Position numbers and translations under genes: made by a program. Under the pieces are notes generated by a model that worked only from the letters and a program-made list of their open reading frames with translations, had not been told where the DNA came from and did no database searches. Below, one piece after another: positions 30,840 through 34,126 of a DNA stretch of 56,874 nucleotides; position 1 is the first letter of the stretch; every line of letters starts with the position of its first letter. This stretch comes from Prolixibacteraceae bacterium (lineage in GTDB: Bacteria; Bacteroidota; Bacteroidia; Bacteroidales; Prolixibacteraceae), in contig WTWZ01000051.1 of NCBI GenBank assembly GCA_009773765.1, positions 1 to 56,874 on the forward strand. Direction: 5' to 3'.

Positions 30840-31310
30840 TCAGTACATGCTAATCTGGTTCGAATTGGTTAATTTTTCGCAGTAACGGCACTTTAGCGAA
30901 ATGGGTTCTTTTTCCACAACTTTGAATGAGGTGGTTATCCGTTCGTTGTTGGTTATGCACTTGGGATTGAAGCATTTTACGATTCCCTGAATTGAATCCG
31001 GGATTTCCACTACTTTTTTCTCTACTACTTCATAGTCGCGAATAATATTTAGCTTGGCATGTGGCGCAATCAATGCAATTTTGTTGATTTCATCATCCTC
31101 GAAAAACTTGTTCGATACTTTTACAATGGCTTTATATCCTAATTTTCCGCTTTCGAGATTGGTGCCAAAAGTAATTTGGTTGTTGATTGAGTCTAACCCC
31201 AGAATCGAAATTACTTTAAAAAGGTTTTTGGCGGGAATATGGTCTATTACCGTTCCTTCTTTAATGGCGCTTACTTTTAATTTGAGTTTTTTCTTCTGTT
31301 CGTCTTGCAT
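30840..31310 (-). CDS. pyrI: Aspartate carbamoyltransferase regulatory chain
   Basis: A 156-residue regulatory subunit that binds nucleotides and imposes feedback control on PyrB. The N-terminal allosteric domain has VSAIKEGTVIDHIPA, and the C-terminal zinc domain shows CFNPKC and CRYC, the four structural cysteines (CX4C and CX2C) that tie it to the catalytic chain. It lies 6 bp after pyrB, in the usual pyrBI order. Confidence 0.95.
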   Translation of the reverse strand: MQDEQKKKLKLKVSAIKEGTVIDHIPAKNLFKVISILGLDSINNQITFGTNLESGKLGYKAIVKVSNKFFEDDEINKIALIAPHAKLNIIRDYEVVEKKVVEIPDSIQGIVKCFNPKCITNNERITTSFKVVEKEPISLKCRYCEKLTNSNQISMY

Positions 31311-31316
31311 GGCAGT

Positions 31317-32225
31317 TTATTTAAGGTTCATGATGTGTGAAATAATTGCTTCGCGCGTAAAAACCCCGTTTCGCGCCTGTGTGAAATAGTATGCTTTTTC
31401 GCTTGTATCAACATCGGTATGAATTTCGTTGACACGGGGCAGCGGATGCAATATTTTTACGTTAGGCCTGGTTTTTTCGAGCATCGAATTCCGGAGGATG
31501 TAAATATTTTTTACCTGCTCATATTCAATTGGATCCGAAAATCTTTCTTTCTGGACACGGGTCATGTATATTATATCTGCCGCGCTGATGATATCGGTAA
31601 ATTCGCTGTGTTCATAATATTTGATTCCTTTTTCGCGCAGGAATATTTTGTATTCGTCGGGCATTTCCAGTACAGGAGGAGCCACAAAATTGAAAATGGG
31701 GTTTTCGAATTCGCTCATTGCCATTAACAATGAATGAACTGTTCTTCCATATTTGAGGTCGCCAACCAGGAATATGTTCAGATTGTCGAGCGAACCCTGT
31801 GTTTTTAGTATAGAATACATGTCGAGCAGGGTTTGAGTAGGGTGCTGGTTGGCGCCATCACCGGCATTAATCACTGGCACAGGGGAAACTTCGGCGGCAT
31901 AACGGGCAGCCCCTTCGAGCGGGTGGCGCATTACAATTAAATCGGCGTAATTACTGACCATTTTAATGGTGTCGTGCAATGTTTCACCTTTACTTGCGCT
32001 CGAACTGTCAGGGTCGGCAAAACCGATTATTTTTCCTCCCAGCCGGTTGATGGCTGTTTCAAAACTTAGCCTTGTGCGGGTTGAGGGTTCAAAAAACAAA
32101 GTGGCAATTACTTTTCCTTTCAGTAAATCCTGGTTCGGGTTCTCTTCGAATTCAGCCGCCAGTTTCATGATTTTCAGGTATTCGTCTTTCGAAAAATCTG
32201 TGATTGATATTAAATCTTTCTTCAT
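31317..32225 (-). CDS. pyrB: Aspartate carbamoyltransferase catalytic chain
   Basis: A 302-residue enzyme of de novo pyrimidine synthesis: carbamoyl phosphate plus aspartate to carbamoyl aspartate. The carbamoyl-phosphate loop [11 protein letters not shown], the HP-containing [11 protein letters not shown], the [13 protein letters not shown] motif and LHPLPRV are all present. Preceded by a long leader with a terminator hairpin (32266-32298) and a good promoter (32460-32490), so expression is probably controlled by attenuation. Confidence 0.97.
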
Positions 32226-32257
32226 ATTTTGAAATTATTGATGTACTGTTTCTGCAT

Positions 32258-32455
32258 TCAAAAAAAAAGCCAACATTTATATCTAAAATGTTGGCTTTCA
32301 AATAAATGAAATTTGTTTTTGGCTATTCTGCCTATCCATTTCTGATTAAAAATAAATGGTAGATGAATGAAAATTCCGGAATCAAAAATTTCTGTTTTAC
32401 GGAGTTTTGTATCTCCAATAAAATATTTCAATTTTAACTGGTGGAATTTCATCAT
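32258..32455 (-). CDS. Possible leader peptide of pyrBI (65 codons)
   Basis: An open frame of 65 codons begins ATGATG, directly after the promoter, and ends in TGA at 32258-32260, at the end of the T-run that follows the terminator hairpin. The last codons, for YKCWLFF, are formed by the 3' hairpin arm and the T-run. No family similarity is recognised. Its position, between promoter and terminator and 32 bp before pyrB, is that of the E. coli pyrBI leader peptide. It may instead be an accidental frame in AT-rich DNA. Confidence 0.4.
   Translation of the reverse strand: MMKFHQLKLKYFIGDTKLRKTEIFDSGIFIHLPFIFNQKWIGRIAKNKFHLFESQHFRYKCWLFF
32260..32298 (-). terminator. Terminator hairpin in the pyrBI leader (candidate attenuator)
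   Basis: AAAGCCAACATTT at 32266-32278 pairs perfectly with AAATGTTGGCTTT at 32286-32298 across a 7-base loop. On the minus strand it is followed by nine Ts (32260-32268). It points only that way, and lies between the pyrBI promoter and pyrB. Confidence 0.8.
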
Positions 32456-32459
32456 GTTT

Positions 32460-32490
32460 CAAAATTAGTGGCTTTCCATTTTAATTCCAA
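32460..32490 (-). promoter_or_regulatory. Promoter of the pyrBI operon
   Basis: Minus strand: TTG (plus 32488-32490), 20 bp spacer, TAATTTTG (plus 32460-32467), a near-ideal Bacteroidota promoter. Transcription would start close to 32455, at the ATGATG of the leader ORF. Confidence 0.65.
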
Positions 32491-32660
32491 TTAGAAAAAA
32501 GGTATTTATTACCAATTTATGAACAGCAGGTTTGCAAAATTATATTTTTAACACTCACTACGTAAATATTTTGAAAATACCGGTTACATTATAACGTGCT
32601 GCCATTGCCTTGAAAAATCTATGGTTTTCTATTTTAATGGTTTTAAAACACCTTCCATTT

Positions 32661-32692
32661 AAATAAAAACATCCGCCATTTTTGACGGATGC
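32661..32692 (-). terminator. dnaA terminator
   Basis: CATCCGCC/GACGGATG stem (32670-32691) followed on the minus strand by a T-rich tract (plus 32661-32669). It lies just after the dnaA stop and should isolate dnaA from the pyrBI unit. Confidence 0.75.
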
Positions 32693-32698
32693 TTTTAT

Positions 32699-34126
32699 TT
32701 ACATTTTTAATTTCTTTTCGATGTCTTCCACGTATTGCCTGAAGTTTTTATCGGTATCTTTTAAATTATTAACTGTTTTGCATGCGTGTAGCACAGTTGC
32801 GTGATCTTTGGCCCCAATTTGAGTTCCAATGCTTGTTAACGAATATTTAGTCAGGCTTTTCGAGAAATACATGGCAATTTGCCTGGCCTGAACAACTTCC
32901 CGTTTCCGGGTTTTGGCCTGAAGCGCATCAACCTGCATATTAAAATAGTCGCAAACCACTTTTGAAATGTATTCGATTGAAAGTTCACGCTTCGAATTCT
33001 TAACCAGCTTATTGATGAGTTTGGCTGCCAGTTCAAGGGTAATTTCCCTTTTGTTCAGCATCGACTGGGCCAGCAATGAAACAAGCGCTCCTTCAAGTTC
33101 GCGGATATTGTTTGCAACGTGCGATGCAATATATTCGAGCACATCATCGGAAAACGTAATACCGTCTTTGTAAACTTTGTGCCGCAAAATTTGCATCCTG
33201 GTTTCAAAATCGGGTATTTGCAAATCGGCAGTTAATCCCCATTTAAACCTCGAAAGTAAACGCTGCTCCATTCCTTTCAGTTCGATGGGCGGTTTGTCCG
33301 AAGTTAGGATTAACTGTTTTCCCATTTGGTGTAAATGGTTGAAAATGTGGAAGAAAGTTTCCTGTGTTTTTTCCTTGCCGGCAAATTCCTGAACATCATC
33401 CAGAATTAATACATCAATCATCTGATAAAAATGAAGGAAATCGTTCCGGTTGTTATTTCTTGTGGCTTCGGTATATTGCGTTTGAAATTTATTGGCGTTA
33501 ACGTACAATACTATTTTGTCGGGAAAATGTTCTTTAACTTCAATGCCAATGGCCTGGGCAAGGTGAGTTTTTCCCAGTCCTGAATTTCCGTAAATCATTA
33601 ATGGGTTAAAAGCAGTGCCACCGGGATTTTGGGCAACGGCAAATCCTGCGCTTCTTGCCAAACGGTTGCAATCTCCTTCGATAAAGTTCTCAAATGTATT
33701 ATCGGGTTTTAATTGCGGATCAATTTGAAGTTTTTGAATACCTGGAATGATGAAGGGATTTTTTATCGCGGTCTTTTCATCCGATTTTAAGGGTATGGTC
33801 AAAGGGTTATTTACAATTTTGATACTGTTGTTTGTTGGATAACTTACGGTGTAGGGATTATTTCCGTTTTTATCACCCATTACCACATTGTATTCGAGCT
33901 TTGCCCCATTACCAACTACCATCCGAAGGGTTCTTCGCAATATGTCAATAAATTGTTCTTCCAGATATTCGTAAAAAAATGCGCTGGGTACCTGAATTGT
34001 AAGTACCTTATCGGTAAGTTTTACCGGTACTATAGGCTCAAACCAAGTTTTAAAACTGCTGCCGGGAACGTTATCTTTTATAACGTTTAAACATTTATCC
34101 CAGACAACCCTGTATTCTTCACTCAT
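32699..34126 (-). CDS. dnaA: Chromosomal replication initiator DnaA
   Basis: A 475-residue AAA+ initiator that binds DnaA boxes and opens oriC. N-terminal domain I, a loose linker, then Walker A YGNSGLGKTHL, Walker B LILDDVQ and sensor regions of domain III, and the DNA-binding domain IV signature DHATVLHACKTV. Full length. The 288-bp AT-rich spacer upstream (34127-34414) has no convincing DnaA boxes, and dnaN/recF are not adjacent, so oriC is probably elsewhere. Confidence 0.97.
   Translation of the reverse strand: MSEEYRVVWDKCLNVIKDNVPGSSFKTWFEPIVPVKLTDKVLTIQVPSAFFYEYLEEQFIDILRRTLRMVVGNGAKLEYNVVMGDKNGNNPYTVSYPTNNSIKIVNNPLTIPLKSDEKTAIKNPFIIPGIQKLQIDPQLKPDNTFENFIEGDCNRLARSAGFAVAQNPGGTAFNPLMIYGNSGLGKTHLAQAIGIEVKEHFPDKIVLYVNANKFQTQYTEATRNNNRNDFLHFYQMIDVLILDDVQEFAGKEKTQETFFHIFNHLHQMGKQLILTSDKPPIELKGMEQRLLSRFKWGLTADLQIPDFETRMQILRHKVYKDGITFSDDVLEYIASHVANNIRELEGALVSLLAQSMLNKREITLELAAKLINKLVKNSKRELSIEYISKVVCDYFNMQVDALQAKTRKREVVQARQIAMYFSKSLTKYSLTSIGTQIGAKDHATVLHACKTVNNLKDTDKNFRQYVEDIEKKLKM

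Follow-up and report, generated by a model that had tools for sequence, protein, structure and literature searches.

A candidate translation-coupled attenuator of pyrBI in Prolixibacteraceae, with a leader reading frame predicted to begin at or near the RNA 5' end

The window, which is the whole stretch of 56,874 nucleotides analyzed here from a Prolixibacteraceae bacterium, carries the aspartate carbamoyltransferase genes pyrB and pyrI downstream of dnaA. The gap between dnaA and pyrB contains, all on the minus strand, a promoter, a leader ATG, a frame of 65 codons, and a hairpin with a run of nine Ts, followed by pyrB. The genes and features are as follows.

32699..34126, minus strand: dnaA, a neighbor outside the device (TIGR00362, 495.1 bits)
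32665..32696, minus strand: terminator of dnaA, distinct from the attenuator (T-tailed hairpin, -18.1 kcal/mol)
32488..32490, minus strand: TTG, the -33 promoter element, 20 nt 5' of TAATTTTG
32460..32467, minus strand: TAATTTTG, the -7 promoter element of the Bacteroidota sigma-A type (consensus TAnnTTTG; recurs in relatives)
32455, minus strand: predicted transcription start, the A of the leader ATG (end of the box at -5, plus 4 nt)
32258..32455, minus strand: leader ORF of 65 codons, probably leaderless or nearly so (openness of the frame conserved)
32266..32298, minus strand: putative terminator hairpin of 13 perfect pairs (AAAGCCAACATTT, 32298-32286, with AAATGTTGGCTTT, 32278-32266)
32260..32268, minus strand: T9 run of the terminator (by its position in the sequence)
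31317..32225, minus strand: pyrB, aspartate carbamoyltransferase catalytic chain (TIGR00670, 374.5 bits; cut-off, 236.95)
30840..31310, minus strand: pyrI, aspartate carbamoyltransferase regulatory chain (TIGR00240, 175.9 bits; cut-off, 148.55)

PMC9723704 places the TAnnTTTG box at -12 to -5 in a flavobacterium, and with the box in this position the predicted first base of the transcript is the A of the leader's ATG. The leader frame stops with a TGA (32260-32258) that takes in the final T of the T-run, while the first three Ts are paired within the hairpin; the pyrB ATG (32225) lies 32 nt beyond the stop codon. A preliminary description of this DNA, which did not name the strand, had listed a TTG-N20-TAATTTTG promoter, a 65-codon frame from the expected start, nine Ts next to a hairpin of 13 perfect base pairs, pyrB 32 bp later, a leader ORF ending at the T-run, and a separate dnaA terminator, and all of these were found again. 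That the hairpin is simply the end of dnaA was rejected, because dnaA has its own terminator. A scan of 7.5 kb, which overlooked the dnaA terminator, gave 11 terminator-like sites, compared with 7.0 (sd 3.1) in shuffles; the leader hairpin has the most pairs among the 11 and is the sole site that the scan gave in the dnaA-pyrB gap. The hairpin and its T-run are predicted to form an intrinsic terminator between the promoter and pyrB, which is where an attenuator of the pyrBI type has one. Another TAATTTTG box is present at 32535-32542 on the minus strand, 75 nt ahead of the leader promoter.

A search of 140 Prolixibacteraceae genomes located PyrB in 128, with relatives such as Mariniphaga sp., Maribellus sp. 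YY47, and Gaoshiqia sediminis showing amino acid identities to the window protein of 88%, 85%, and 83%, respectively. The regions upstream of pyrB, among them 87 taken in addition to the loci of the PyrB searches, were scanned for the promoter box, an ATG 3 to 9 nt farther on, and a T-tailed hairpin. All three occurred together at 102 of 135 loci, copies included; the 135 contain L041 to L047, six of which are copies of other loci and of which L047 is labelled Marinilabiliaceae, as well as L130, a copy of L015. Without copies, the layout is present at 93 of 125 loci and in 16 of 22 genera, a count that includes L135 and L210 as judged by eye and L121, whose hairpin was misplaced by the script. 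At the other 33 of the 135 loci, two of which were too short, the box, the ATG, or the hairpin was undetected, and inspection by eye found a hairpin in L188 and L190. The script also set the hairpin start too far downstream at some loci (by eye, L129, L131, L136, L141, and L162). Within the limits of 3 to 9 nt, the gap between box and ATG is 7 nt at 46 and 4 nt at 40 of the 102 loci (copies included), which would put the start of the leader near +4 or +1. The preliminary description had proposed conservation of hairpin position and leader frame as a check, and the hairpin, the spacing from promoter to ATG, and the open frame do recur across these genera. Related sequences share ancestry and are not independent trials, so the counts overstate conservation; the pattern spans 16 genera, and by this measure the layout is beyond chance. 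The script did not find the layout in 6 of the 22 genera and found it at 1 of 17 loci in genus g25, so that the layout is dispensable.

The leader frame is open far more often than expected. Among 94 distinct leaders, in which ATG and hairpin are a median of 147 nt apart, the ATG frame is free of stop codons up to the hairpin in 86, compared with 10.1 in dinucleotide shuffles; in 91 it comes within 15 nt of the hairpin before any stop, compared with 2 and 3 in the other two frames and 12.5 in the shuffles. As for the three failures, the wrong box was chosen in L135 and L210, as seen by eye, and L212 has no canonical box. These three and L121 were excluded from later sets, and in the 90 leaders kept, the stop codon lies before the hairpin in 12 (none earlier than -14), within 0 to 35 nt in 6, and beyond in 72. 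Given the size of its footprint, a ribosome halted at -14 would still come roughly up against the stem. The leader ORF thus appears able to carry a ribosome into the terminator in 91 of the 94 leaders, the largest shortfall among the 90 being 14 nt, as would be expected of a pyrBI-type attenuator.

The peptide encoded by this frame seems to be nearly free to change. In 20 non-overlapping pairs of close leaders, 109, 108, and 133 changes fall at codon positions 1, 2, and 3, and 56 of 168 codons with a single change are synonymous, a slight excess over the 25% expected, which would allow for a weak constraint on the peptide. About 19.8 in-frame stops would be expected from 355 random changes in these pairs, and stops were observed only in L044 and L175 among the 40 pair members, 13 and 4 nt before the hairpin. 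The frame is kept open while the peptide is nearly free, which suggests that the act of translation counts and not its product. A barely constrained peptide sequence is also in line with a pyrBI-type attenuator, as the sequence of the leader peptide is unimportant in pyrL. Indel lengths gave 130, 161, and 159 cases for remainders 0, 1, and 2 modulo 3, a comparison made unusable by the over-gapping of distant pairs, and the pooled leader composition is 12.8% F, 9.7% L, and 8.7% K. The separate promoter and terminator would also be accounted for if the region made a functional small protein, or a small RNA acting in trans, with its own terminator ahead of pyrB; this explanation is highly improbable in view of the nearly unconstrained peptide, the placement of stop codons relative to the hairpin, and the occurrence of the layout ahead of pyrB at 93 of 125 loci. 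In addition, the window leader peptide has no match in Pfam or NCBIfam, and a functional small protein was rejected on this ground and on that of the unconstrained sequence.

The window leader together with its terminator (199 nt) folds at -44.8 kcal/mol, with a z score of -4.4 and an energy below that of every one of 200 shuffles; without the terminator hairpin, the z score is -2.4. The 90 leaders folded from ATG to hairpin have a mean z score of -1.72, and 40 of them are below -2. Two predicted pairings, P1 and P2, and a pyrimidine tract were located in the window leader.

32443..32453, minus strand: 5' strand of P1, nt 3-13, covering the first codons (MFE fold; recurrent in relatives)
32401..32416, minus strand: core of P2, GGAG-ATACAAAA-CTCC, a candidate pause hairpin (MFE fold; hairpin peak before the tract in relatives)
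32378..32388, minus strand: pyrimidine tract TTTTTGATTCC, a candidate UTP/CTP-sensitive pause site (12 nt beyond P2; TTTTCCC enrichment in relatives)
32366..32377, minus strand: 3' strand of P1, nt 79-90 (MFE fold)

Earlier attention had gone to a U-rich stretch before the hairpin; such a stretch, TTTATTTGAAA, does adjoin the hairpin, and comparison with relatives indicates that the tract of interest is probably TTTTTGATTCC (32388-32378, minus strand) instead. Between nt 45 and 105, the motif TTTTCCC is present in 28 of 83 leaders, compared with 1.9 in shuffles, and a TTTTTT run alone is not enriched in the same interval (15 of 83 leaders versus 17.9 in shuffles). Hairpins ending 7 to 12 nt 5' of the tract reach a mean energy of -1.59 kcal/mol, compared with about -0.15 kcal/mol in shuffles. 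This spacing between hairpin and tract resembles that of known pause hairpins, and P2 with the tract looks like a polymerase pause module.

In P1, the first codons are paired with sequence just 3' of the tract, a pairing that is found at the 5% level in 33 of 82 leaders, compared with 3 of 83 for a control region. In 52 of 90 folds, pairing takes up at least two bases of the start codon, compared with 37% in shuffles. The window itself ranked at 0.565 in the P1 test, with the wrong tract chosen by the tract finder, which also affected some relatives. RNAalifold analyses of four clades gave modest structures with covariation terms of 0.21, 0.47, 0.51, and 0.04, which are above zero and not favorable, and P1 and P2 recur with some pairs changed on both sides. 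Because the covariation is unfavorable and the window fails the test, P1 is regarded as probable and not as proven. A start codon held in a stem, combined with leaderless initiation, would make translation of the leader inefficient. The better-than-shuffled folding of the 90 leaders and the two-sided pair changes in P1 and P2 might also point to a riboswitch or another structured regulatory RNA whose open frame is a by-product of its folding. However, only the ATG phase has an open frame, a segment that competes with the terminator for pairing turned up in just 1 of 90 leaders, the RNAalifold covariation terms are unfavorable, and neither the window leader nor any of the five pyrB loci tested fits a family in Rfam, making this explanation very unlikely. 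At gathering scores, Rfam gave only tRNAs, and a known Rfam RNA was rejected for this reason; the 23 matches up to an E value of 5 were all well under the gathering scores, with the best two (E values of 0.015 and 0.053) falling on the dnaA terminator.

In the search for pairing with the 5' arm of the terminator, one of the 90 leaders passed at the 5% level and the median rank was 0.65. No upstream segment thus pairs unusually with this arm, and an antiterminator of the kind known from amino-acid attenuators and many riboswitches, none having been found, was rejected. PyrR-type control and amino-acid leader attenuation are classic for pyr and amino-acid operons, respectively, and either could be proposed for a leader terminator at pyrBI. 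Leader-peptide attenuators have been suggested, in the part of PMC9723704 on leaders, for amino-acid operons of Flavobacterium psychrophilum. According to the relevant portion of PMC4824070, however, amino-acid attenuators hold the terminator more than 20 bp past the leader gene, while that of Escherichia coli pyrBI lies inside the leader gene, and the ORF here overlaps or abuts the terminator. In addition to the lack of an antiterminator, the best match to PyrR (NF003549) in the window's own genome scores 22.4 bits against a cut-off of 138, and PyrR control was rejected because no PyrR is above the cut-off. A PyrR-binding RNA was found in the leader neither at gathering scores nor among the 23 matches up to an E value of 5. 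Both the PyrR-type and the amino-acid explanations are therefore extremely improbable.

A comparable arrangement precedes carA. In the window's own genome, carA is preceded by a TANNTTTG box, an ORF, and a T-tailed hairpin; the leader (L222, 1352-1483) has an ORF of 31 codons, or by eye a shorter one of 12 codons, that ends at the hairpin. The carA hairpin (AATGCGTTTG..CTAC..GTAG..CAAACGCATTTTTTTT) is strikingly conserved through the family as judged by eye, and no Rfam match was found in the five carA loci tested. CarA was found in 127 of 140 genomes, and 70 carA loci were examined, comprising 30 that, apart from L253, belong to the genus of the window, and 40 selected among further matches. 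After removal of eight duplicates, and with L246, L273, L292, and L293 unevaluated, 58 distinct leaders were left. An ORF of at least 8 codons beginning with ATG or GTG reaches the hairpin or ends within 15 nt of it in 54 of these 58, compared with 26.9 in shuffles, the exceptions being L255, L264, L271, and L272; with ATG alone, the count is 42, compared with 22.0 in shuffles. The carAB operon has a second leader ORF, more weakly supported than that of pyrB. The region upstream of pyrE shows no comparable leader by eye.

Among 81 loci outside Prolixibacteraceae, mostly from Bacteroidales, Bacteroidetes, or one of their families where titled, a hairpin was found in 20 and an ORF reaching it or ending within 15 nt of it in 7 of these, with gaps of up to 30 nt allowed between box and ATG. 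The seven loci are from Marinifilum breve (L051, 85 codons), Paludibacter sp. (L075), the similar L079, and L077, L088, L022, and L028. In Bacteroides fragilis (L071), no terminator was found by the same scan.

We estimate at roughly 70% the probability that pyrBI is controlled by a ribosome-mediated, translation-coupled transcription attenuator of the pyrBI type whose start codon lies within a few nucleotides of the RNA 5' end. A likeness to the pyrBI attenuator had been suggested in the preliminary description, and it gains support from the ORF that overlaps or abuts the terminator, the lack of any antiterminator found, and the nearly free peptide. The comparison of related sequences shows the layout of promoter, ATG, frame, and terminator, selection for the open frame over the peptide, and the P2-tract module; from these we infer that termination takes place, that the leader is translated, that UTP or CTP is the signal, and that P1 has a role. 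RNA polymerase would start at or beside the leader ATG and slow at the pyrimidine tract behind P2. When UTP, perhaps also CTP, is scarce, the polymerase would wait, giving a ribosome time to load at the 5'-terminal AUG and to follow closely, and this ribosome, carried by the leader frame into the terminator, would block the hairpin so that pyrBI is transcribed. When UTP is plentiful, the polymerase would outrun the ribosome, and the hairpin would form and stop transcription before pyrB. P1 would close over the first codons only once the tract has been copied, and it may then bar late ribosomes.

The same ribosome-blocked terminator could respond to translation capacity, namely, the supply of ribosomes or of initiation, instead of UTP. 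The layout argues only for a translating ribosome that reaches the terminator, and leaderless initiation could be specially regulated; however, the device is found on pyrBI and, more weakly, on carAB, which carry out the first steps of pyrimidine synthesis, and there is enrichment for a pause-like hairpin followed by a pyrimidine tract, so that we consider this signal unlikely. The pyrimidine-responsive attenuator of the pyrBI type might further involve a kinetic competition, in which ribosome loading on the 5'-terminal AUG races the closure of P1. A pause at the UUUUCCC-like tract would delay the 3' strand of P1 and leave the start codon open only at low UTP or CTP, widely in the family, with a related device on carAB. 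This proposal is tentative and somewhat doubtful; if true, it would give one logic for the first enzymes of the pyrimidine pathway.

E. coli offers the best-known case of pyrimidine genes attenuated under ribosome control. The trp, his, and thr leader-peptide attenuators likewise have a translated leader ahead of a terminator, and a pause hairpin synchronizes ribosome and polymerase in them; unlike in these systems, no competing antiterminator was found here, the ORF extends to the terminator or into it, and the peptide can vary almost freely. The PyrR attenuator of Bacillus, represented by RF00515, is also a leader terminator of a pyrimidine operon, and the present case differs from it in that the genome has no PyrR above the cut-off and the leader does not match that RNA family. 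In E. coli pyrBI, prevention of the terminator requires coupling across pyrL, as stated in the pyrBI passage of PMC5021804. The locus described here shares with E. coli pyrBI the operon, a pyrimidine tract upstream, and a terminator that is overlapped or abutted by the leader ORF. It differs in that the leader starts at or a few nucleotides from the predicted 5' end, the first codons lie in P1, a UUUUCCC-like tract behind a hairpin is the candidate pause, the phylum is another one, and a similar layout is present at carAB. Convergence with the enterobacterial pyrL is likely.

In Bacteroides thetaiotaomicron, sORFs in long 5' UTRs, such as the one before BT_4401, are described in a section of PMC7366714 as reminiscent of leader peptides. 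These sORFs and the attenuators suggested for F. psychrophilum share the phylum and the general kind with the present case, and they concern amino-acid operons or sORFs; the word "pyrB" is absent from the main texts of PMC9723704 and PMC7366714. A search of titles and abstracts, with subscription journals mostly outside it, gave no description of pyr attenuation in Bacteroidota, which is weak evidence of absence. Initiation without Shine-Dalgarno sequences in flavobacteria and a share of 5.5% leaderless mRNAs in a flavobacterium are given in parts of PMC9723704, and a share of about 3.7% of 5' UTRs shorter than 10 nt in B. thetaiotaomicron is given in a part of PMC7366714. If the attenuator is real, the logic of pyrBI would be present, probably as a separate invention, in a phylum that initiates without Shine-Dalgarno sequences, which would imply that polymerase and ribosome are closely coupled there, and its regulatory leader peptide would be unusual in starting at the RNA 5' end.

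Several loci of the relatives show variants of this region. At 25 of the 102 pyrB loci (copies included), such as L012, the leader TGA overlaps the pyrB ATG (ATGA), which could couple the translation of leader and pyrB. In L027, L036, and L032, extra sequence lies between the attenuator and pyrB, and the leader ORF, still open, has 102 to 108 codons and ends on the pyrB start codon. The pyrB match of L027 (G003:C1:1597846-1598750) is in two pieces, the second of lower identity and with two internal TGA codons, and this gene may be broken or misassembled. L135 has a tandem duplication of the promoter box and leader start (TATTTTTGTCACATGAGATTCCGACAAG twice), about 250 nt 5' of pyrB. In L002, L003, and L014, dnaA is about 950 to 1060 nt from pyrB, with one gene between them that is missing from this place in the window (32226-32699); by eye, the end of this gene resembles that of yigZ (DUF1949). 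Loci of the window's genus, such as L012, also have a conserved GTTAATAAAATGCTGATAAGTA about 60 to 70 nt upstream of the leader promoter, between it and the upstream gene. This element looks like a tandem pair of TGTTAATAA / TGCTGATAA copies, and it might, as a guess, be a site for a regulator or for DnaA.
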